This document shows positions 1,128 through 45,865 of a stretch of 53,223 nucleotides of DNA, piece by piece. How positions within the stretch are numbered: the first letter of the stretch is position 1; every line of letters starts with the position of its first letter. The notes beneath the pieces are model-generated. The model was not told the DNA's origin and ran no database searches. It was given only the letters and a program-made list of their open reading frames with translations. The DNA comes from a virus. Where the stretch lies: positions 1-53,223 of the IMG/VR virus record IMGVR_UViG_3300024952_000001. One strand, written 5' to 3'. The position numbers were made by a program, and so were the translations under genes.

Positions 1128-1361
1128 CTAAGCGGCTTTTACCAATTCAGGCCAGTTGTCCTGCCAATCATTGGGGCGAAGGTCTTTGCGAGTAACTTGC
1201 ATGTTGCTGTGCTTCTCAATCAACACGCACAGCGCAGGGCTGAGCAAAGAGCCTTTAGATACGGCTTTTCTTAAATAGCCAATTGATGTTCCGCACTGGG
1301 TTGCAAAAGAATATTTAGCAGGACCAGCAAGGTTGTTAATGTATTTAAGTAATTTATCCAT
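1128..1361 (-). CDS. cro: Cro-like repressor, YdaS-antitoxin-type
   Basis: A 77-residue helix-turn-helix protein divergent from the CI-type repressor. The helix-turn-helix covers about residues 12-42 (GPAKYSFATQCGTSIGYLRK). The tail VTRKDLRPNDWQDNWPEL is typical of the YdaS/Cro-like family. It should bind the operators between itself and cI and favour lytic growth. The ATG lies only six bases beyond the -10 hexamer of its promoter and has no Shine-Dalgarno sequence, so the mRNA is probably leaderless. It is the first gene of the long leftward transcript. Confidence 0.88.
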   Translation of the reverse strand: MDKLLKYINNLAGPAKYSFATQCGTSIGYLRKAVSKGSLLSPALCVLIEKHSNMQVTRKDLRPNDWQDNWPELVKAA

Positions 1362-1367
1362 GGGGAG

Positions 1368-1396
1368 ATGTTACCCATAGGTAATGTTAATGTCAA
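1368..1396 (-). promoter_or_regulatory. P_R-like early leftward promoter
   Basis: On the minus strand TTGACA (1396-1391) and TAACAT (1373-1368) are separated by 17 bp. The -10 box and spacer are covered by operator 1371-1384 and the -35 box touches operator 1396-1409, so repressor binding would block it. Transcription should begin at or within a base or two of the cro ATG at 1361. Confidence 0.85.
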
Positions 1397-1424
1397 TACC
1401 TATGGGTTATTTACTTGCAGGTAA
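1371..1424. promoter_or_regulatory. Right operator region: three 14-bp operators
   Basis: Three near-palindromes of the form TTACC-N4-GGTAA lie between cro and cI: TTACCCATAGGTAA (1371-1384), ATACCTATGGGTTA (1396-1409) and TTACTTGCAGGTAA (1411-1424). The same motif recurs twice at 4147-4185. Graded matches to consensus suggest different affinities for CI and Cro, as in lambda. Confidence 0.88.
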
Positions 1425-1444
1425 TTGTTTGGGAATATCATCAG

Positions 1445-2113
1445 ATGGATAAATACGAAAAAAGACGATTAGCACTTATTAGATTAGTTGCCAAAGTCGG
1501 TGGACAAGCAAAGCTAGCGGATAAGCTTGAAGTAAATCCTAGCTACGTTTCACGCATGCTTTATGAAGAAGGTAAAGCAGCAAAAAAACGTATAGGCGAA
1601 GATATGGTTGAAAAACTGGATCATCTATATGAGGGTTGGTTAGATGATGTTGAAAATAATAAAAAACAAAATGATTTTAATAGTGATGAATTTACTATCA
1701 ACCAATATCACGATGTAAGAGGGGCAATGGGTCAAGGTTTGGTGTTACGTGGGGAATCAGGGCAAATAACAGGGTGGAAAGTTACGCGCGAGTGGTTAAG
1801 TAAAAATGTGCCTGCTAATACAGGAAACAATAACTTGACGATAGTTACCGGCTTTGGTGATTCAATGTGTGGAATGTATAACTCAGGAGATCCGCTGATT
1901 GTTGATGTTGGAGTTAAAACTTTAGAGTTTGACGGCGTTTACTTCTTTAGAGTTGGTGAAGAAGGATTTATCAAAACACTTCAACGAATACCTGGTGAAG
2001 GCATTAGGGTAATCTCTGAAAATAAAAAATACGAAACATGGACCATTACAAAAGAAATGGATTTTGAAGTGCTAGGCCGTGTGCTGAAAGCTTGGGAAAG
2101 CAAAGAATTTTAA
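1445..2113 (+). CDS. CI-like repressor with S24 peptidase domain
   Basis: A 222-residue lysogeny repressor. The N-terminal helix-turn-helix is at GGQAKLADKLEVNPSYVSRM. The C-terminal S24/LexA-type domain has Ser140 in GDSM and Lys177 in FIKTLQR, 37 residues apart, the same spacing as the LexA Ser-Lys dyad. RecA-stimulated self-cleavage is therefore expected, perhaps near the AMGQG stretch. The start is ATG 1445 after GGGAA; an earlier TTG at 1415 lies inside operator 1411-1424 and is less likely. It is divergent from cro and heads a rightward run of genes likely expressed in the lysogen. Confidence 0.93.
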   Translation: MDKYEKRRLALIRLVAKVGGQAKLADKLEVNPSYVSRMLYEEGKAAKKRIGEDMVEKLDHLYEGWLDDVENNKKQNDFNSDEFTINQYHDVRGAMGQGLVLRGESGQITGWKVTREWLSKNVPANTGNNNLTIVTGFGDSMCGMYNSGDPLIVDVGVKTLEFDGVYFFRVGEEGFIKTLQRIPGEGIRVISENKKYETWTITKEMDFEVLGRVLKAWESKEF

Positions 2114-2293
2114 ATGCCTAATCTGAATAGCAAACACTATATTGCATTAGCTATTTTTCTTTTTACTTTGGCTTGGTGGTTTAGGTATGACACGAATTGC
2201 GGTGGCAATTATGGGGTGGCGTGTGTTTCATATGATAGGTTTACTGGGAAATGGATTATTCCAGTAAAAGAAGCGCAAAATAATTACAGATAG
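2114..2293 (+). CDS. Small membrane protein (59 aa) coupled to cI
   Basis: The ATG follows the cI stop codon directly (TAAATG), so translation is probably coupled. Residues about 8-23 form one hydrophobic segment (YIALAIFLFTLAWW), followed by a polar tail with two cysteines (NCGGNYGVAC) that could form a disulphide if the tail is outside the cytoplasm. No family is recognised. Its position behind the repressor suggests expression from the prophage, for example in superinfection exclusion, which is inference. Confidence 0.7.
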   Translation: MPNLNSKHYIALAIFLFTLAWWFRYDTNCGGNYGVACVSYDRFTGKWIIPVKEAQNNYR

Positions 2294-2306
2294 AGGGGGG
2301 GGGTGT

Positions 2307-2696
2307 ATGAAGTTCATTTTAATTTTAGTTACATTGTTGATGATTGGTTGCGCAACCAGCTATCAGAAAAAAGGCATCTCAGGCGGCTACTCAGATGCGC
2401 AGATTGATGAAAACTCTTATCGAGTGACATTTGTAGGCAATGGTTATAGCTCAAAAGACCAAGTAGAAAACATGCTTTTGTATAGATCAGCAGAACTTAC
2501 AAATGAGAAAGGCTACGATTGGTTTAGCGTCAATGAACGCGAAAGCAATGAGCAATCACATGCCAAGTATGGAAAGCTTGGATTAGATTCAACCGCTATT
2601 ATCAAGATGTATAAAGGCGTAAAGCCTGAATCTGCATTTAGGAGCTACTCTGCCAAGTCGGTGATCGAGCATCTCGGAAAATCCATAAATCGCTAA
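2307..2696 (+). CDS. Lipoprotein, CC0125/CC1285-like
   Basis: A 129-residue lipoprotein. The signal peptide (MKFILILVTLLMIGC) ends in a lipobox with Cys15. The mature part (GGYSDAQIDENSYRVTFVGNGYSS, then a helix RSAELTNEKGYDWF) matches the pattern of the CC0125/CC1285 lipoprotein family as I remember it. It would be anchored to a membrane facing the periplasm. The ribosome-binding site contains a run of nine G (2295-2303) ending three bases before the ATG. It lies between the cI-coupled membrane protein and a secreted nuclease, probably a lysogenic cassette. Confidence 0.85.
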   Translation: MKFILILVTLLMIGCATSYQKKGISGGYSDAQIDENSYRVTFVGNGYSSKDQVENMLLYRSAELTNEKGYDWFSVNERESNEQSHAKYGKLGLDSTAIIKMYKGVKPESAFRSYSAKSVIEHLGKSINR

Positions 2697-2697
2697 A

Positions 2698-2967
2698 ATG
2701 CTATTAAAGTATTTGTTGATATTTCTGCTAACAATCACATCCCTTTCAGCACAAGCAGAATACAGACGCAGCTACAAGGCCAAGAGCCAGTTTAAACAAT
2801 CGCACCCCTGCCCTGCTACTGGACGCAGCAAAGGCTCATGCCCTGGCTACATAATAGACCATGTTCAAGCGCTTGCTTGTGGCGGTGCAGATCATCCAAG
2901 CAATATGCAATGGCAGACTAAAGCTGATGCTAAAGCTAAAGATAAGTGGGAGCGTAGAGGGTGTTAA
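2698..2967 (+). CDS. Secreted HNH nuclease-like protein
   Basis: An 89-residue protein that overlaps the lipoprotein stop region (TAAAATG). Residues 1-20 are a signal peptide (hydrophobic core LLKYLLIFLLTITSL, likely cut after SAQA). The mature part has the HNH pattern: D54-H55 in IIDHVQALACGG, N69 in HPSNMQW and basic KAKDKWERR. Cysteines at 38, 48, 61 and 89 suggest disulphides or metal binding. A nuclease sent to the periplasm by a lysogen could attack incoming DNA. That role is inference; the HNH and signal peptide are visible. Confidence 0.82.
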   Translation: MLLKYLLIFLLTITSLSAQAEYRRSYKAKSQFKQSHPCPATGRSKGSCPGYIIDHVQALACGGADHPSNMQWQTKADAKAKDKWERRGC

Positions 2968-3048
2968 TACTAAGATGAAGCAACCATTAGCAAATTTACT
3001 AGTCACATATGCGTACCAATCAAGGTAATAAATACTATTGATTATTAG

Positions 3049-3068
3049 TAGTTACTACCTAGTAACTA
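3049..3068. repeat. Perfect 9-bp inverted repeat in an AT-rich gap
   Basis: TAGTTACTA, two bases, then TAGTAACTA. It lies in the 281-bp AT-rich gap 2968-3248, which holds no gene I can support. It could be an operator for the two-gene unit that follows, since it is too AT-rich and lacks a T-run to be a terminator. Nothing else clear is seen in this gap apart from the promoter at 3188. Confidence 0.5.
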
Positions 3069-3187
3069 AGTGCGGTAGTTGGCAGTAATTAAATAATTAT
3101 GTTTAATAAATTAAACGTTTACGTATATCTAGCTATTTACTAAGAGGTAATTATTGTTTACTATACCAATTAATGCTGTTGGCAAAG

Positions 3188-3216
3188 TTGTCAATAGCTA
3201 TTTTTGTTTTTTATAC
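3188..3216 (+). promoter_or_regulatory. Probable promoter of the 3249-4016 gene pair
   Basis: TTGTCA (3188-3193) and TTATAC (3211-3216) are separated by 17 bp, with a start expected near 3223, about 25 bases before the ATG at 3249. The -10 box is a modest match. Confidence 0.5.
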
Positions 3217-3248
3217 GTTAGTTATAAGCGTAATTGAGAGGAAGTAAA

Positions 3249-3428
3249 ATGAGTCAAAATATTGAATTTCTTCAGAAGAGAATATTTGATAAAGATTCTC
3301 TAGCGGCCACCAATTTTAAAATGTTCCCTGGCAGTAACAGAGATGTTAGTGCTGAACAATTTGCTGAAGAAATTAATAAGTCTTTATCAAGATTAGAATC
3401 AGGTGATTTTGAGGTTTTAGATATATAA
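3249..3428 (+). CDS. Hypothetical small protein (59 aa), partner of the ImmA-like gene
   Basis: The start is ATG 3249 with a strong GAGAGGAAG ribosome-binding site; an in-frame TTG at 3234 is less likely. The protein is charged and mostly helical in appearance (FAEEINKSLSRLESGDFEVL). No family is recognised. It lies 15 bases before the ImmA/IrrE-like gene, in an AT-rich unit with its own promoter and two terminators. That layout resembles accessory two-gene modules such as toxin-antitoxin pairs, but no toxin is identified. Confidence 0.7.
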   Translation: MSQNIEFLQKRIFDKDSLAATNFKMFPGSNRDVSAEQFAEEINKSLSRLESGDFEVLDI

Positions 3429-3443
3429 GAAAATTGTTAAATT

Positions 3444-4016
3444 TTGGAAAAATTTAAAGAGCTATACGAACATTGTCAAAAAATACAAATCCCAGTTAGT
3501 AGAAAAGATATACAACCAAAAGCTCTTTCAATAACAGGAGCAACAAGAATTGCTGCAGTAAAAAGTACTTTAGATACTGATATTATTAGAGGATATTTTT
3601 TATCCGCTAGCAATACCGAGGCAAGACTTGTTCAACAGTTTGGATGTAATGTAATAGTGTTAGCTCGCTCCCTGAATTATTGTTGGGAAAGATTTGTTTT
3701 CACAAAAGAGCTAATGCATCTTTTTGACCTTGATGACGAAAAAACATCAAATACATTAGAGCTAGAAACTTTACTATCTAACTTTGAAATACCTGACACC
3801 AATGGCAGTAAACAATTTAAGTCCGATATTAAGGGGCTTTGGATGGCATTGGCTTGCCTCTGCCCTGAATCGGAAAGACTTAAGTTCAAAGATGGCATTG
3901 AAAAGGGGCACATCGATTACTATGGAATTGCTCTCCAGATAAAAATACCAGAGAAATATGTAAAATATTATTTTACAGATGCATACGAAAGAATAATCAA
4001 GACACTTCTAGCTTAA
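3444..4016 (+). CDS. ImmA/IrrE-like protein with altered zinc motif
   Basis: A 190-residue protein resembling ImmA/IrrE (DUF955) metallopeptidases, which often cleave phage-type repressors. At residues 88-92 the expected HExxH reads KELMH (in FVFTKELMHLFD), so the first zinc-binding histidine is replaced by lysine; activity is doubtful unless another residue substitutes. The start is TTG 3444 and no ribosome-binding site is clear. The next in-frame ATG is far downstream. It may be translationally coupled to the 59-aa gene before it. Base composition is AT-rich compared with the rest of the genome, suggesting separate acquisition. Confidence 0.65.
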   Translation: MEKFKELYEHCQKIQIPVSRKDIQPKALSITGATRIAAVKSTLDTDIIRGYFLSASNTEARLVQQFGCNVIVLARSLNYCWERFVFTKELMHLFDLDDEKTSNTLELETLLSNFEIPDTNGSKQFKSDIKGLWMALACLCPESERLKFKDGIEKGHIDYYGIALQIKIPEKYVKYYFTDAYERIIKTLLA

Positions 4017-4022
4017 AACACT

Positions 4023-4045
4023 AACCTGCTTCGGCAGGTTTTTTT
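4023..4045 (+). terminator. Rho-independent terminator
   Basis: The stem AACCTGC/GCAGGTT has a TTCG loop and is followed by T5-T7. It lies just after the ImmA-like gene. Confidence 0.92.
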
Positions 4046-4083
4046 ACGCCCATTCAACTGTAAGCCTATAGCTAACAGTTCAC

Positions 4084-4107
4084 AAACCGCTTAAGTGCGG
4101 TTTTTTT
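4084..4107 (+). terminator. Second rho-independent terminator
   Basis: The stem AAACCGC/GCGGTTT has loop TTAAGT and a T-run. Both terminators are followed by ACGCCCA, suggesting a local duplication. Together they isolate the accessory pair from the P_L-like promoter 50 bp downstream. Confidence 0.92.
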
Positions 4108-4146
4108 ACGCCCAAATTTCCTCACTATAAAAATAATTAAAATAAA

Positions 4147-4185
4147 TTACCTATGGGTATTGACACATACATTACCTATGGGTAA
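4147..4185. promoter_or_regulatory. Left operator region: two 14-bp operators
   Basis: TTACCTATGGGTAT (4147-4160) and TTACCTATGGGTAA (4172-4185) match the three cI-cro operators. The second is a perfect 5-bp-arm palindrome. They overlap the -35 and the spacer/-10 of the rightward promoter, so CI and Cro should control both early operons together. Confidence 0.88.
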
Positions 4186-4188
4186 TAT
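4160..4188 (+). promoter_or_regulatory. P_L-like early rightward promoter
   Basis: TTGACA (4160-4165), a 17-bp spacer, then TAATAT (4183-4188): a near-consensus sigma-70 promoter. Spacing and operator placement match the P_R-like promoter at 1368-1396. The start is expected near 4195. Confidence 0.9.
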
Positions 4189-4234
4189 TCACACATCGCA
4201 GCAAAATACCGTTTCGATACTTTCTCCCAGGTTA

Positions 4235-4276
4235 GCGAGTGGGAAATTTTAGGAAGAGTACCACTCGCATTTTTTT
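4235..4276 (+). terminator. Leader terminator / attenuator before the early right operon
   Basis: GCGAGTGG (4235-4242) pairs with CCACTCGC (4261-4268) and is followed by A and seven T. It stands between the P_L-like promoter and the first gene at 4288. TCCCA just upstream can pair with TGGGA, which overlaps the terminator's left arm, so an alternative antiterminator fold is possible. This suggests control by attenuation or antitermination. No N-like gene was recognised. Confidence 0.75.
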
Positions 4277-4287
4277 AGGTGAATGAA

Positions 4288-4512
4288 ATGAACATATTGC
4301 AATCAGGTTTAGCGATGCAAGCCATGCAGGTTAAGGCGAAAAAAGTAGCTGTTATCGGCACAGATAAGACCGTGGAAGCTTTCAAATCACAAGGCAAGGT
4401 GTTGGTACATAAGCCAGCCAGTTTAGATGCCTTACGTGCTGAGAAAGAAGCTAAGAAAGCGCGTGAAGCACAGCGCCAGATGATGGCACATACATCGCCA
4501 GAGGCGGCTTAA
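4288..4512 (+). CDS. Hypothetical protein (74 aa), first gene of the early right operon
   Basis: The start is ATG 4288 after AGGTGAATGA; GTG 4279 overlaps this ribosome-binding site. No family is recognised. The middle looks beta/alpha (KKVAVIGTDKTVEAFKSQGK) and the C-terminal third is a charged helix (LRAEKEAKKAREAQRQMM). It lies directly behind the leader terminator, the place where an antiterminator might be encoded, but it has no arginine-rich RNA-binding motif. Confidence 0.75.
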   Translation: MNILQSGLAMQAMQVKAKKVAVIGTDKTVEAFKSQGKVLVHKPASLDALRAEKEAKKAREAQRQMMAHTSPEAA

Positions 4513-4942: not shown

Positions 4943-5125
4943 ATGCCCTCACTAGAGCAATACATCATTGACCAAGACGGCGTTAAGCGTGTGGTGTTTG
5001 AGGAATCTGAAAACAAGCACGCCAACGAGTTTGCAGAGTACCAAGCAGGCTATGAAGCCGCACCAAACAAGCTTGATTACAACATGCAACTGATGAAACA
5101 GATTAGAGCGAGGCATCCACTATGA
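4943..5125 (+). CDS. Hypothetical protein (60 aa)
   Basis: A small charged soluble protein (YQAGYEAAPNKLDYNMQLMKQ). It overlaps the next gene by four bases (ATGA), fitting the tightly packed early operon. No family or motif is recognised. Confidence 0.65.
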   Translation: MPSLEQYIIDQDGVKRVVFEESENKHANEFAEYQAGYEAAPNKLDYNMQLMKQIRARHPL

Positions 5126-5322
5126 AAAAACTTTACACAGCCTTATGGGTAGTTATCGGTTCACTAGCCTTCTTTGCCCTACTCGCTCTAGTTGCTTACG
5201 TGGAACAGAAAGCGATTAACGAAGAAAAAGCAAAGTACAAATCAAGCTGGTGCAACGTAGATTTTGGCAGTAGCAAGGCAACGATTGAGTGCAGCAAGGT
5301 TTCAAGACTGGAAAGAGAATGA
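5122..5322 (+). CDS. Small single-pass membrane protein (66 aa)
   Basis: Residues about 4-26 form one hydrophobic helix (LYTALWVVIGSLAFFALLALVA), followed by a charged region and a tail with two cysteines (SWCNVDF, TIECSK). The positive N-terminus suggests the tail is periplasmic. It overlaps the genes on both sides by four bases. The function is unknown. Confidence 0.7.
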   Translation: MKKLYTALWVVIGSLAFFALLALVAYVEQKAINEEKAKYKSSWCNVDFGSSKATIECSKVSRLERE

Positions 5323-7257: not shown

Positions 7258-8550
7258 ATGAACAAGCCATTACAAACAGTAGAAGCCGCCAGCATTGCAA
7301 ATCAAGCACTGGTTACGTTAGACCCAGAAACTTACGCAGCAGCAGTTTACGAACCGTTTAAAGCGCGCCTAGAAACGGCGATTGCAAATAGCACAGGCAT
7401 TGAATACAACATTCAAACTAAAGAAGGCATGGCCGTAGCAAAAGAGCATCGCGCTGTCTTACGTGCTATCCGTATTGATGCAGATAAAGAGCGTGCAGCA
7501 CGTAAAGCGCCAATTACAGCTATCGGCAAATTGCTTGAAAGCAAATATACGGAACTTGAAAGCGCCGTAACTCCTCACGAAGATAAGTTTCACGCTGATA
7601 TTAAAGCCGAAGAAGAGCGCATCGAAACTGAGAAAGCAGCCAAGCTAAAAGCAGAAGAAGATGCAAAAGCCGCTATTCAAAACAAGATTGACGCTATCAA
7701 AAACAAGCCACTGGAAGTTATGAATAAATCAGTGGCCGATATTGAAGAGGCTATCGCGGAATTATCCCCGTTAATTCCTACGCCTGCCGAGTTTGGCGAA
7801 CGCTTTATAGAAGCCGAGTACGCATTAAAAGCTACGCTTGATACGCTTGCATCAATTGTATCTGGCAAGAAGGCGCAAGAGCAGCTGGAAGCCCAGAACC
7901 GCGCATTACAGGCAGAGCAGGAAGCGAGAGAAGCCGAAGCGCAGCTGGCCGCTAAAGAGCAGGCGCGTGTTGATGGTATTAAGGCAAATATTCAGAACAT
8001 TAAGAACTTCATCATCGAAGGCTCTGAGTGTGAAACATCTGCGCAACTAGATAAGTTAATTGTCAACCTGCAAGCAATGGAAATCACAGAGGTTATATTC
8101 GCTGAGTTTCTAGAAGATGCATTAAGCGCTGCGTCTAAAACTTTGCAAGTACTTGATCGCCAGCATGCAGCAATGGTCAACGCCGAGCTAGCAGAATTAG
8201 AAGCTCGTAAAGCCAAAGAAGCCGCTGAAATCAAAGCACGCCAAGAGCTTGAAGCGCAAATCATTGCAGAGGCTAAGAACGATGACGGTGCTGTTGTTGA
8301 CGCGACATTTAACGAATCTGACTTTAACAAAGTTTTTGCTGATGCAATAAAAACTGGAACTGGCGTAATGAGTGTTTCAGTAAATGAGCAAAGTGAAGTT
8401 AAGGCAAATCACATACCTGCAGTACAAGTCGGAAGTGTGCGCCCTACTGCTCAATCAATCATCAACCTAGTAGCAAAGACATACAACGTTGATACAGCTA
8501 CAGCTAATCGCTGGTTGGCTCAATCGTTTGGCGAGTTGAAAGCGGCTTAA
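7258..8550 (+). CDS. Long coiled-coil protein (430 aa) in the recombination operon
   Basis: The start is ATG 7258 with AAGGA upstream; the frame is open from 7207. The N-terminal 90 residues are predicted helical. Residues about 95-380 are rich in Ala, Glu and Lys in heptad-like order (EEERIETEKAAKLKAEEDAK; EQEAREAEAQLAAKEQARVD), giving two long coiled coils. The last 60 residues look like a small folded domain (SVRPTAQSIINLVAKTY...ANRWLAQSF). Similar proteins accompany recT/exonuclease pairs in other phages (DUF1351-like). A Gam-like or scaffold role is inference. Confidence 0.8.
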   Translation: MNKPLQTVEAASIANQALVTLDPETYAAAVYEPFKARLETAIANSTGIEYNIQTKEGMAVAKEHRAVLRAIRIDADKERAARKAPITAIGKLLESKYTELESAVTPHEDKFHADIKAEEERIETEKAAKLKAEEDAKAAIQNKIDAIKNKPLEVMNKSVADIEEAIAELSPLIPTPAEFGERFIEAEYALKATLDTLASIVSGKKAQEQLEAQNRALQAEQEAREAEAQLAAKEQARVDGIKANIQNIKNFIIEGSECETSAQLDKLIVNLQAMEITEVIFAEFLEDALSAASKTLQVLDRQHAAMVNAELAELEARKAKEAAEIKARQELEAQIIAEAKNDDGAVVDATFNESDFNKVFADAIKTGTGVMSVSVNEQSEVKANHIPAVQVGSVRPTAQSIINLVAKTYNVDTATANRWLAQSFGELKAA

Positions 8551-8580
8551 GAAAACGGCTGGCTCACGTAACGAGCCACC

Positions 8581-8705
8581 ACACGACTTGCTATTACCGA
8601 AATATGAATTAGTAGTGAACTTGATTTGGTACGGAAAAATAACCCAAGCTCGCAACTTGGATGCGCAAAAGTTCGATCAAGGTAACTGGTAGTAGTAAGC
8701 CGTGT
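8581..8705 (+). ncRNA. Candidate folded RNA segment, possible decayed tRNA
   Basis: ACACG (8581-8585) pairs with CGTGT (8701-8705), CTT (8587-8589) with AAG (8697-8699), TTACC (8594-8598) with GGTAA (8681-8685), and GAACTT (8617-8622) with AAGTTC (8669-8674). Inside is a perfect 5-bp hairpin with loop CTCGCAA (8644-8660) that looks exactly like an anticodon arm, reading CGC. No T-arm or acceptor fits, so it is not a normal tRNA. It may be a remnant or an RNA domain of the same cluster. Confidence 0.4.
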
Positions 8706-8715
8706 AGTAAATAAA

Positions 8716-8793
8716 GCGCCTCTAGCTTAATAGGTAAAAGCAATCCGCTCATAACGGATAGATAGATAGGTTCAAATCCTACGAGGCGCACCA
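8716..8793 (+). tRNA. tRNA with anticodon CAU (Met or Ile2)
   Basis: The acceptor stem GCGCCTC/GAGGCGC is perfect, the D-arm is GCTT/AAGC, and the anticodon arm ATCCG-CTCATAA-CGGAT is perfect. The T-arm has loop TTCAAAT and one A-C mismatch, and CCA is encoded. The anticodon stem lacks the three G-C pairs of initiator tRNA, so it is an elongator Met or, after lysidine modification, an Ile tRNA for AUA codons. It could supplement the host pool. Confidence 0.92.
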
Positions 8794-8797
8794 TGAA

Positions 8798-8873
8798 TTA
8801 AGCCGACTTTATGATGTGGCGCATCACTAAAGCCAATGCGTAGGCTACCTCTAGTGGGGTTAAGTCGGTTTAA
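8798..8873 (+). ncRNA. Candidate structured RNA, 76-nt three-arm fold
   Basis: TTAAGCCGACTT (8798-8809) pairs with AAGTCGGTTTAA (8862-8873) over 12 bp with one G-U. Inside are hairpins TGATG/CATCA, AGCC/GGCT and ACCTC/GGGGT. The loops do not fit tRNA rules (a 4-base loop where a T-loop should be). It starts five bases after the tRNA and ends just before the next folded domain. It contains CAATGCGTAGGC, also found in the RNA at 44097. Confidence 0.55.
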
Positions 8874-8874
8874 T

Positions 8875-9039
8875 TGATGGTGTAGCAGCACTGTTTAGAA
8901 GTGCGAGAAGTGAGGGAACAAGCTCACACAATGAGGCCGAAAGGTTTTGAAGTTCTGCGGTTAGCCACAATTAGGCCAGATGGCTCGTTATCGAGAAGAG
9001 AAGCTAACCGAATGTAGGCGAAAGCTTACCGCACCATCA
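8875..9039 (+). ncRNA. Candidate structured RNA with two GAAA tetraloops
   Basis: TGATGGTG (8875-8882) pairs with CACCATCA (9032-9039). Within it are GCAC/GTGC (8888-8904), GTGAG/CTCAC (8910-8927), AGGCC-GAAA-GGTTT (8934-8947), CGGTTAGC/GCTAACCG (8958-8965/9003-9010) enclosing CTCG-TTAT-CGAG, and GTAGGC-GAAA-GCTTAC (9014-9029). Two GNRA loops on the plus strand indicate that this strand is the RNA. No open reading frame fits. The class is not recognised. Confidence 0.65.
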
Positions 9040-9061
9040 CCAATTTTATGAAAGGTAGATC

Positions 9062-9145
9062 ATGGCAAAACATAAAAATGCAAAAGGCAGTAAACGAAAC
9101 TCAAGGCGTGATCGTGCAGAACAAAAACGGACACCGTGGCTATGA
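9062..9145 (+). CDS. Very small basic protein (27 aa)
   Basis: The ATG has AAAGG at the right distance. The peptide is strongly basic (KHKNAKGSKRNSRRDRAEQK), suggesting RNA or DNA binding. Its stop overlaps the next start (ATGA). It lies 22 bases after the structured RNA segments. An association with those RNAs is inference. Confidence 0.6.
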   Translation: MAKHKNAKGSKRNSRRDRAEQKRTPWL

Positions 9146-9633
9146 AAAAACAAAAGAAACGCACCAAGGCATTTAACCCTAGCAAACATCGTGTAGTGAT
9201 TAATGCAGTGTATCAAACCGTAAGACTAGCCAAGCCAGTAAGCGATGAAGCAAAGGTTAAGCTAAACGAGCAAATACATGGCGCACTTGAAGCTATTACA
9301 AAGGGCGTAGGCACACCAGAGCACTTTGATGTTTTAGCGTCAACGGTTGATGTTGTTTTCATGATGGCAATGAACCTATTTAACGATGCCTATAAAGATG
9401 AAATAGCCAACGCACGCCAAGCAATGTTTAGGCTTAAAGATAGGTTTCACAAGTTCGGCTCTTTTGGCTTTGACGGTGTAGGTTACAACGCGATTAAAGA
9501 GCTTGTAGCAATTCACGATGAAATGATGAATCACGTAACTGGCGCAGAAGTTTTGCAGTTTATGAATGCCAGGGCAAATGCAATTAAAGGCGGTAATTAT
9601 TACAGAAGTGAAAGTGAAAGGTTGGCGGCATGA
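9142..9633 (+). CDS. Hypothetical helical protein (163 aa)
   Basis: The start is ATG 9142, coupled to the 27-aa gene; GTG 9136 is in frame but less likely. The N-terminus is basic (MKKQKKRTKAFNPSKHR) and the rest looks all-helical (VKLNEQIHGALEAITKGVG; NARQAMFRLKDRFHKF). The family is not recognised. It is often seen as an unknown early gene in related phages, as far as I recall. Confidence 0.8.
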   Translation: MKKQKKRTKAFNPSKHRVVINAVYQTVRLAKPVSDEAKVKLNEQIHGALEAITKGVGTPEHFDVLASTVDVVFMMAMNLFNDAYKDEIANARQAMFRLKDRFHKFGSFGFDGVGYNAIKELVAIHDEMMNHVTGAEVLQFMNARANAIKGGNYYRSESERLAA

Positions 9634-44090: not shown

Positions 44091-44096
44091 TAAACC

Positions 44097-44225
44097 TCTA
44101 GTGCAATGCGTAGGCGATACGCAGCGTGATGACTTAAGCAAAGTGAGAGAGCCTGCCCGTTAGGTTGCATACGTTACCGGAGCCACTTAGGTAATGCCAG
44201 GTTCGCATCTGGCGCACTAGAACCA
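44097..44225 (+). ncRNA. tRNA-like structured RNA of about 129 nt
   Basis: TCTAGTGC (44097-44104) pairs with GCACTAGA (44214-44221), followed by A and CCA (44223-44225). Directly inside is GCCAG-GTTCGCAT-CTGGC (44196-44213), a T-arm-like hairpin with an extra base in the loop. At the 5' side is a D-arm-like 6-bp hairpin TGCGTA-GGCGA-TACGCA (44107-44123). TTACC/GGTAA (44174-44194) sits where a long variable arm would be. In place of an anticodon arm there are about 50 bases with a bulged stem CGTGATG/CATACG and two hairpins. It is transcribed against all neighbouring genes and ends in its own terminator. Class unknown. Confidence 0.68.
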
Positions 44226-44245
44226 AGAGGCTTCGGCCTCTTTTT
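44225..44245 (+). terminator. Rho-independent terminator of the rightward RNA
   Basis: AAGAGGC-TTCG-GCCTCTT followed by T3 more gives a 7-bp stem and a T-run on the plus strand only. It ends at the base before the terL stop codon, which lies on the other strand, so it does not serve terL. It may also shield the RNA gene from antisense transcription. Confidence 0.88.
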
Positions 44246-45865
44246 CTATGCCGTGCGCCAGTTGCCTGATTTTCTGGCCTTCGGTCTATTTTGGCCAGCA
44301 ACCTTAATCAGACCCAATGCTTTAGCCTGTGCAAACTGTCTAAAGCTGTCTGCGCCCTCGCTGTTAATGTCATGCTTTGGTAACTCGCTCCATCGCTCTT
44401 GTTTCTCATTCCACTGCTTCTTGTAGTTATCCAGCCGAGTAATGCCAAGTGCGCACGATTCTTTATCAATATAAACCTCAGGCATAGCCTCGCGCGTTTG
44501 CTGGATGCCATCTTGAATGTTTGTTATGCGCGGTACAATTTCTATATTTAGAAGTCCTTTATCCTCAAACATTTCTTTGACGCTTTTGTTCTCCTCGCTC
44601 AATCTCTTATGGTCGGCGTCATGCGGCATGAAATGCTTACCCCAAATATAGTTTTTACTTTGAAGAAGCTTAACGTAATGGCCTATCGTTTCTCCATGCC
44701 CTTCTTCGTAATCAATAAATCGATACTCCATGCCAACCATCTGCATAAACCATACAGCACAGCCGTCACCATTGCCAATATCCCAAAAGGTAAACACTGG
44801 CAAATCGAGCTTTGGTATTTTTAGTATGCGGCCTTGCTTACGCATGATAGACATTTGTTTGTGATAGTAATTGCCTTCAATAGATACTTCAAAGGCCTCT
44901 TTAGGCGTACTTGGATATTCCCGATTCATCACTTCCTTTTCCCACGAAAAATCATTTTCTAAAGTCACGACATACCATGCACGCTGTTCTAAATCTATTT
45001 TTGTATTCATGAGCACTTCAATCTCATTAAAATACTCATGCTGCTTGTCAGTTATGTTCACACCATCTGGATTTATTCTGTATTCATCTGCAGCGAACCA
45101 TGGGTAGAAGTGCAATTTAAAATCTTTTCTATTTGCCTCCCTGCCAGCCTCTTCACGCTTTATAGAAGCCTGCACCTTGTCGTGGTAATCACCCTCTTTA
45201 CCTTCTGCAGTACTTTCGATAATGATGATTCCAGTTGTTGGCACAGCAGGGATTGAGCCTGTTTTAACTTCTTTTGCTTTGTCCGGGCTTTTTGCACAAA
45301 TTTTTCCGTACTCTGAAACGTGAAGCCTGTGGATTGTGCCGCCACGTAAAGATGTGGCAACGCGAACGCTTGAGTTATTGTGTGCAAACACAACTTCTGA
45401 CTTGTTTTGTGAGGCTGTTGGGAACATTGCCTTCAAAGATTCAGGCATGTTGTTATAAGCAAACATTACCTTATCTCTGAATATGATCTCAGCATTTTGT
45501 CTATCTTGAGCGATGATGCCGCAACGTGCGTTTGGATTGTATAACGCATGGTCCAGCCAAAGAATTGCAACTAATGTCGTAAACCCAAGCTGGCGAGCTT
45601 TTAGTATTAAGTTTCTATTCCACATGCGCTTCATAAAGCGCAGTTGGTGCCTATTAGGGATAAAAGGCAGCACAGTATCTTCTGTTAGCTGCTCACCGTC
45701 CTCTGACACTTCACCTTTAATGATGATTTTATAAATTTTGCCGGACGTAATCCTCCACCATGGATCCTTTAGGTTTTTAAACAGCTCTTTAATTTCAGAC
45801 TTTTGTTCGTCAGTTAAAGAATCGTCTAGCAATTCATCGTTAATACTAACTGCAGCTTCAATCAT
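44246..45865 (-). CDS. terL: Terminase large subunit
   Basis: A 539-residue packaging motor and nuclease. The ATPase part has a Walker-A-like KARQLGFTT (residues 89-97) and Walker B IIIIE (213-217). The RNase H-like nuclease has FWDIGNGDG (360-368) and HDADH (415-419). The start is ATG 45865 overlapping terS by eight bases; ATG 45874 and TTG 45877 are alternatives. Together with terS and the portal it fills the capsid. The stop codon is immediately next to the terminator of the opposite-strand RNA. Confidence 0.93.
   Translation of the reverse strand: MIEAAVSINDELLDDSLTDEQKSEIKELFKNLKDPWWRITSGKIYKIIIKGEVSEDGEQLTEDTVLPFIPNRHQLRFMKRMWNRNLILKARQLGFTTLVAILWLDHALYNPNARCGIIAQDRQNAEIIFRDKVMFAYNNMPESLKAMFPTASQNKSEVVFAHNNSSVRVATSLRGGTIHRLHVSEYGKICAKSPDKAKEVKTGSIPAVPTTGIIIIESTAEGKEGDYHDKVQASIKREEAGREANRKDFKLHFYPWFAADEYRINPDGVNITDKQHEYFNEIEVLMNTKIDLEQRAWYVVTLENDFSWEKEVMNREYPSTPKEAFEVSIEGNYYHKQMSIMRKQGRILKIPKLDLPVFTFWDIGNGDGCAVWFMQMVGMEYRFIDYEEGHGETIGHYVKLLQSKNYIWGKHFMPHDADHKRLSEENKSVKEMFEDKGLLNIEIVPRITNIQDGIQQTREAMPEVYIDKESCALGITRLDNYKKQWNEKQERWSELPKHDINSEGADSFRQFAQAKALGLIKVAGQNRPKARKSGNWRTA

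Follow-up and report, generated by a model that had tools for sequence, protein, structure and literature searches.

RNAs in which a tRNA-like part carries another RNA are known from tmRNA, the bacterial Y RNA (YrlA) and engineered tRNA scaffolds. In bacteriophage T4, the tRNA cluster also yields two small stable RNAs, rnaC (species 1, 139 nt), which has a tRNA-like T-arm at its end, and rnaD (species 2, 119 nt); we know of no function for either. RNase P has been recorded to cleave phage RNAs, and phi80 M3 RNA and the C4 RNA of P1/P7 are described as phage non-tRNA RNAs processed by this enzyme (PMC11143913). GOLLD and ROOL are structured RNAs of phages and prophages that often lie near tRNA islands (PMC12286853), and the Pas sRNAs of lambdoid prophages are placed beside holin-lysozyme operons and end in intrinsic terminators (PMC13192938).

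The window analysed here is the whole of positions 1-53,223 of IMG/VR record IMGVR_UViG_3300024952_000001, a 53 kb virus record. Its gene-free block at 8551-9061 is probably an array in which structured-RNA modules, each exchangeable on its own, surround a tRNA gene; the last module, E3, would be a tRNA-framed slot whose interior acts in trans.

Genomic setting of the array

The window encodes an integrase and an S24-type repressor-like protein, and the phage is therefore probably temperate. Upstream of the block lie genes resembling RecT and YqaJ, together with a 447-aa ORF whose family is unknown, and the array sits within a plus-strand gene cluster in the order leader hairpin, E1, tRNA(CAU), E2, E3, a ribosome-binding-site-like stretch and a basic 27-aa ORF (Table 1). 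The first-pass annotation had found no fitting reading frame in the block and had remarked that phages seldom leave some 500 bases unused. The first observation stands, as the longest ORFs listed across the block, of 61-62 aa on the minus and 34-38 aa on the plus strand, are not convincing. As to the second, a crude ORF map makes 8551-9135, at 585 nt, the largest gap of the window, but two others measure 559 and 511 nt, so that gap length alone is weak evidence. Searches of the block and its parts against the phage collection by BLAST returned tRNA matches and chance matches only, and the upstream protein had no match in that collection and no relative in genome_contigs. The Lys/Arg-rich 27-aa ORF, which had no match in Pfam or PHROGs, could encode an RNA-binding partner.

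Table 1. Features of the window; z values are from dinucleotide shuffles, and the leader hairpin and the 27-aa ORF were read from the sequence.
Feature	Position	Strand	Description	Support
Leader hairpin	8560-8578	+	GGCTC-ACGTAAC-GAGCC, head of array	
Module E1	8579-8707	+	Long closed stem, directly before the tRNA	Fold -35.1 kcal/mol, z -3.27
tRNA-Met	8716-8793	+	Anticodon CAU	ARAGORN; Rfam RF00005, 59.5 bits; z -3.58
Module E2	8793-8876	+	Cloverleaf-like; 14-pair closing stem 8796-8809/8862-8875	z -4.94
Module E3	8874-9042	+	Putative tRNA-framed slot	z -3.82; interior exchange; compensatory stems
27-aa ORF	9062-9145	+	Lys/Arg-rich, directly 3' of array	
Kissing-loop family RNA	44096-44222	+	Stand-alone	Model R1, 30.5 bits, E 8.9e-7 over 171,577 bases
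Terminator-like hairpin	44225-44246	+	Carries a T run; 3' of the 44096-44222 element	One site, against 0.4 expected from shuffles

Within 8400-9200, neither promoter-like nor plus-strand terminator-like sites were found, and the array would thus depend on read-through and processing. An array placed between plus-strand genes with no such site of its own is also what would be expected if the modules were cis-acting, serving as processing signals, stabilisers or spacers that tune nearby genes in the same transcript and doing nothing in trans. We regard this as unlikely on account of the family described below, even though tRNA-like structures are processing sites and the basic ORF follows directly 3' of the array.

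Folding of the block

ARAGORN and Rfam both called the tRNA and no other within the block, as the first-pass annotation had proposed, and the three segments that it had described as closed multi-helix folds (E1, E2 and E3) are indeed closed and stable, E1 over 8581-8705, E2 over 8796-8875 and E3 over 8875-9039 (Table 1). The block as a whole gives a z score of -4.88, and at most one in 200 dinucleotide shuffles was as stable as E1, E2, E3, the tRNA or the whole block. Ninety-nine control windows of 168 nt taken elsewhere had a mean z score of -0.34 (sd 1.08), with a lowest value of -4.41, so that one control window is as extreme as the modules. E2 contains the anticodon-like hairpin, AGCC-AAUGCGUA-GGCU, and the two GAAA tetraloops cap the E3 hairpins 8933-8948 and 9014-9029; the long perfect stems reported with them are likewise present, but as closing stems of 14 (E2) and 9 (E3) pairs and not of 8 and 12 bp. 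A search of 8401-9200 against all Rfam families, with E values up to 10, matched the tRNA alone, in agreement with the earlier view that the structured RNA is new and does not match GOLLD, ROOL, tmRNA or RNase P RNA.

Separate gain, loss and replacement of modules

Relatives of the site were IMG/VR contigs found through the upstream protein, the downstream protein or the E2 core pattern. Identical stretches were counted once (L007-L010 as one version, L005 as the window's own phage), leaving nine distinct array versions: the window, L006, L009, L011, L137, L138, L145, L147 and L151, of which the L145 contig ends within the last module. The leader hairpin is identical in L006 and L147 and is replaced by GACTGGCGTAAGCAGTC in L009, L011, L138, L145 and L151, and ORFs resembling the 27-aa ORF occur in L006, L009 and L138. 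E1 stands with a different tRNA in L011: in this relative (L011/L267) it precedes tRNA-Arg, and its inner helix is entirely different yet paired, a comparison that is weak because it involves only two distinct sequences.

E2 is present in seven of the nine versions, with or without E1 and the tRNA, and is missing from L006 and L011; the L009 group, L138, L145, L147 and L151 combine E2 and the terminal slot without E1 or the tRNA. The identity of E2 to the window copy is 96.4-98.8% in the four relatives measured, compared with 76.6-91.2% for the last 150 nt of the flanking gene in the same four. As the closing stem of E2 is invariant among the versions, no covariation can be drawn from this module. 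A D-arm-like hairpin within it is complete in four versions but disrupted in three others. E2 positions 8835-8846 read AATGCGTAGGCT, the first 12 letters of the 5' hairpin motif of the kissing-loop family defined below; in E2, AATGCGTAGGCT is folded differently from the family, as the loop of a GCC/GGC hairpin.

The modules are thus separately present, absent or replaced among the nine versions, which overturns the suggestion of the first-pass annotation that the block is one molecule cut beside the tRNA. The same separate loss and swapping makes it barely credible that the block is one large ornate RNA of the GOLLD/ROOL type with the tRNA inside and the three segments as its domains, even if the z score of the whole block, the long-range pairs in its minimum-energy fold, the location of GOLLD and ROOL near phage tRNA islands and the ability of GOLLD to contain tRNAs (PMC12286853) would all suit such a molecule. 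Rfam gave no match to it at E values up to 10, and although 10 nt of the leader (8569-8578) are complementary to E3 (8981-8990), nothing equivalent exists in L147, where the leader is the same and E3 is another. We therefore retain the array of individual modules.

E3 as an exchangeable slot

The closing stem of E3 comprises 9 pairs (8875-8883/9031-9039), with one hairpin at its 5' inner end (8888-8904) and another (9014-9029) beside its 3' strand, one base intervening. Within it, a 7-bp acceptor-like stem with G1-C72, as in a tRNA, can be written as GATGGTG/CACCATC-A-CCA (8876-8882/9032-9042), in which A9039 takes the discriminator position and CCA follows at 9040-9042. Neither ARAGORN nor Rfam recognised E3 as a tRNA with D-, anticodon and T-arm.

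Alignment of the window with L153 (same contig as L137) gives 97.6% identity over 8416-8880, none inside E3 and 97% from 9031 onwards. The breaks in homology (8880 and about 9031) are thus the two strands of the E3 closing stem, and they fall at the same places in other relatives. The sequence of E3 itself was found solely in the same phage. Members of a kissing-loop family occupy the slot in five of the nine versions (L006, L009 and L151 strongly, L137 and L145 weakly), and the slots of the remaining relatives hold tRNA-Arg or other RNAs, the tRNA-Arg of L011 ending in the same CACCAATTTTATG. The closing stems differ yet pair: TGATGGTG/CACCATCA in the window, TGATGGGT/ACCCATCA in L009 and L151, TGATGGGGC/GCCCCATCA in L147 and TTGATAGTGC/GCACTATCAA in L006, with compensatory changes of the form GGTG/CACC, GGGT/ACCC and GGGGC/GCCCC. 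L009 and L006, moreover, hold a nearly identical insert within two different closing stems. These two observations indicate that the stem is conserved as pairing and that the interior is cargo. Judged by sequence comparison, E3 is a slot, in which relatives retain the tRNA-like closing stem and exchange the entire inner RNA. Retention of the E2 module and of the pairing in the E3 closing stem among relatives supports the first-pass reading of the block as structured RNA.

The tRNA-like ends of the last module, the tRNA-Arg in the L011 slot and a feature marked as pseudo tRNA that adjoins the tRNA-Met of phage pYD6-A would each fit an origin of the block as functionless decayed tRNA genes and recombination debris. 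This is highly improbable, as stems in debris would not be maintained by compensatory change, nor would E2 be expected to stay 96-99% identical in the four relatives measured while the flanking gene falls to 77-91%.

A kissing-loop family with a tRNA-like frame

The slot occupants of L009, L006 and L151 have their 5' hairpin in common with ZC03, a Schitoviridae phage. A scan for this hairpin, allowing all four combinations at its last pair, gave at least 122 pattern matches, or 112 unique elements once 6 duplicates and 4 elements at contig edges had been dropped. A second hairpin is found in 96 of the 112 (among the matches listed); the 16 that failed this filter include several in which variant hairpins can be seen and at least two (L083, L103) that have none. 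The resulting architecture combines an acceptor-like stem, two hairpins (one D-arm-like, one T-arm-like) whose loops are complementary, and an insert that is hypervariable. Order and spacing of the parts are tRNA-like, with the closing stem followed by linking bases, the D-arm-like hairpin (GG in its loop), the insert, and a T-arm-like hairpin of 5 bp that sits flush on the closing stem.

Of the 96 elements (among the matches listed), 92 are closed by a stem of at least 6 bp, compared with a mean of 21.4 and a maximum of 30 for shuffled partners. For covariation, 37 of 40 chosen reference members were aligned, three being left out. The family stems of these 37 covary (score 0.354 versus 0.109 when shuffled, 0/500), with double changes at all eight closing-stem pairs and three of the five pairs of the 3' hairpin; the kissing helix provides no evidence in this test, as it was fixed by query and filter. 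The last pair of the 5' hairpin (n = 90, among the matches listed) is C-G in 75 elements, U-A in 13, U-G in 2 and C-A in none. A second scan, with other letters in the first loop, returned 80 matches (68 unique), of which 43 that lacked the combination of closing stem and flush hairpin were excluded; plainly coding sequence accounts for many of these, and a few (such as L180, L200 and L203) resemble missed members. In this second scan the loops change together, AGGCGAU occurring with UCGC in 14 of 14 elements and AGGCCGAU with UCGGC or CGGC in four of five, whereas six elements with other loops show no loop match of 4 or more. Overall, 18 of 25 elements show loop complementarity, compared with 11.9 on average and 16 at most after shuffling.

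E3 shares with the family a closing stem of at least 6 bp and a hairpin beside its 3' strand. It lacks the family 5' hairpin, AATGCG(C/T)-AGGC.., and the loop complementarity, having GCACT-GTTTAGA-AGTGC at this position and GAAA in its 3' loop, and the best score of covariance model R1, which was built from the family, in 8500-9100 was 6.9 bits (E 0.045 for 601 bases), off the stem of E3. Membership of E3 in the kissing-loop family was therefore rejected. Few family members carry CCA at the tRNA position (7/90, among the matches listed); it is present in E3 and, behind an 8-bp stem, in a second element of the window at 44096-44222.

A stand-alone element in the same window

This second element, whose closing stem (44097-44104/44214-44221) is followed by ACCA, is a plus-strand family member flanked by minus-strand genes and backed by its own terminator-like hairpin (Table 1). 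Folded alone, it is of moderate stability (z -2.01). The copy in L264 is identical over 127 nt, with flanking genes 75.5% and 80.7% identical, and L262 has the same gene order without the element. The element thus reads as a stand-alone RNA gene that has been selected or recently transferred. Such identity amid diverged genes is a further point against debris, although recent transfer could explain it too.

Inserts, orientation and spread of the family

Clustering of 94 inserts (among the matches listed; median 77.5 nt) gave 80 clusters, 71 of them with a single member. A single closing-stem sequence accompanies 21 insert clusters, and some inserts recur within several different closing stems. 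The inserts are barely more structured than their shuffles (mean z -0.52). A terminator lies within 80 nt of 17 of 92 members (among the matches listed), the corresponding figures being 2.8 for shuffles and, at a control distance, 6 of 88, and several members are oriented opposite to their neighbouring genes. Terminators of their own, opposite placement (that of 44096-44222 included) and a hypervariable insert, which a purely cis-acting role does not need, all speak against modules that merely tune the transcript in which they lie. Trans action is favoured by the opposite placement and these terminators, together with the tRNA-like ends and the tRNA neighbourhood in some phages. Two general rules of placement were considered and rejected: members are not mainly beside tRNAs, any ARAGORN tRNA being near in 9 of the 60 loci scanned, and a small basic protein is not always 3', as the downstream ORFs varied.

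Model R1 finds members in P1 (three matches), Klebsiella phages KP6 and 6991, Salmonella STGO-35-1, Shigella DS8, mEp460, PAJU2, Burkholderia CSP3, Aeromonas 2_D05, E. coli CU10EC and ZC03. The family also occurs in 14 genome contigs, most of them from gamma- and betaproteobacteria and including a Bradyrhizobium and a MAG of the Phycisphaerales. At least 80% of the length of the P1 element is present in 813 of 5426 complete E. coli genomes, and no annotation lies under the match in the ten E. coli matches listed. Searched for targets in the E. coli genomes, the P1 insert essentially matched the element itself only (944 places versus 943). The loci tested gave no Rfam match for family elements, and tmRNA matches beside the element of L042 were sub-threshold (26.3 bits, E 0.02).

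The P1 stretch between dmt and tciA (1592-3351 of L132, from OP279344) contains tRNA-Asn and tRNA-Thr, a series of closed stems and an annotated 58-aa hypothetical protein. Its model R1 matches lie at 2501-2635, 2930-3031 and 3191-3315, corresponding to about 65634-66448 in OP279344. In KP6 (L133), about 3 kb without annotated genes (1291-4318) precede tRNA-Met; here one model R1 match (2501-2596) is accompanied by many more self-complementary stretches seen by eye.

A possible role for the slot

The array would be transcribed through with the surrounding plus-strand cluster, and host tRNA-processing enzymes would free the tRNA and E3, with RNase P cutting before G8876 and 3' trimming proceeding to CCA. 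Such release fits the G1-C72 stem and CCA of E3 and the phage precedents. The frame of E3 (acceptor-like stem, discriminator A and CCA, hairpins at the inner ends, and a replaceable interior in place of the anticodon region) would then stabilise the RNA through its tRNA-like ends, and the variable interior would work in trans. Slot and family RNAs alike are most likely tRNA-framed stable RNAs that display a variable RNA. Counting against this are the position of E3 outside the family, the rarity of CCA, the array having no promoter-like or terminator-like site of its own, the finding of the E3 sequence in the same phage only, the location of most members away from tRNAs and the search of E. 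coli genomes that yielded no target for the P1 insert. Interior diversity under a constant frame suggests an arms race, and our first guess for the interior, made with real reserve, is accordingly that it serves as decoy or bait, drawing off a host factor that might be a defence enzyme acting on tRNA.

On a broader and still tentative reading, many proteobacterial phages, P1 included, may carry uncatalogued tRNA-framed RNAs, in which a constant acceptor and D/T-elbow frame locked by kissing loops holds nearly always different, cartridge-like inserts that pass between phages and serve as RNA counter-defence or targeting devices, E3 being another type of cartridge in the same socket. If the RNA is made and stable, phages would be using a natural 'tRNA scaffold' to present fast-changing RNAs, and the long-known stable RNAs of phage tRNA clusters would gain a testable role. 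P1 and those 813 E. coli genomes contain the constant, covarying frame with its hypervariable insert.

Comparison with known systems

No description of the kissing-loop family was found in the literature searched, which consisted mostly of openly accessible texts. Going by their description (PMC13192938), the Pas sRNAs were judged to differ from the family. A hammerhead was considered for the gene-free tRNA-array gap of ZC03 (L004, 3074-3399), where CTGATGAG...CGAAAC was noted by eye, and was rejected with no Rfam match at the gathering score. Two further phages carry features of related appearance. In Vibrio phage F86 (L003), the tRNA annotation includes two features each some 120 nt long (2368-2488 and 2502-2621), the second of which scores 57.6 bits with the Rfam tRNA model although it is much longer than a tRNA. 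In pYD6-A (L002), an unannotated acceptor-like stem, TGAAGCTTG/CAAGCTTCA, followed by CCA, lies at 3168-3245 behind the tRNA-Met and pseudo tRNA.

The likeness of phi80 M3 RNA and P1/P7 C4 RNA to the array is one of description only; the Rfam C4 match in L019 (2538-2625) is apart from its family element (5069-5203). Compared with GOLLD and ROOL, the modules of the window are far smaller, are exchanged separately and have no Rfam match. T4 rnaC and rnaD, set beside E1-E3 by description and annotation, resemble the array as small stable RNAs of a phage tRNA cluster, and the T4 stretch (L135), unlike the kissing-loop members, has no match of the family model. The block likewise differs from tmRNA and YrlA, having no Rfam match and a constant frame in which the insert is nearly always different.
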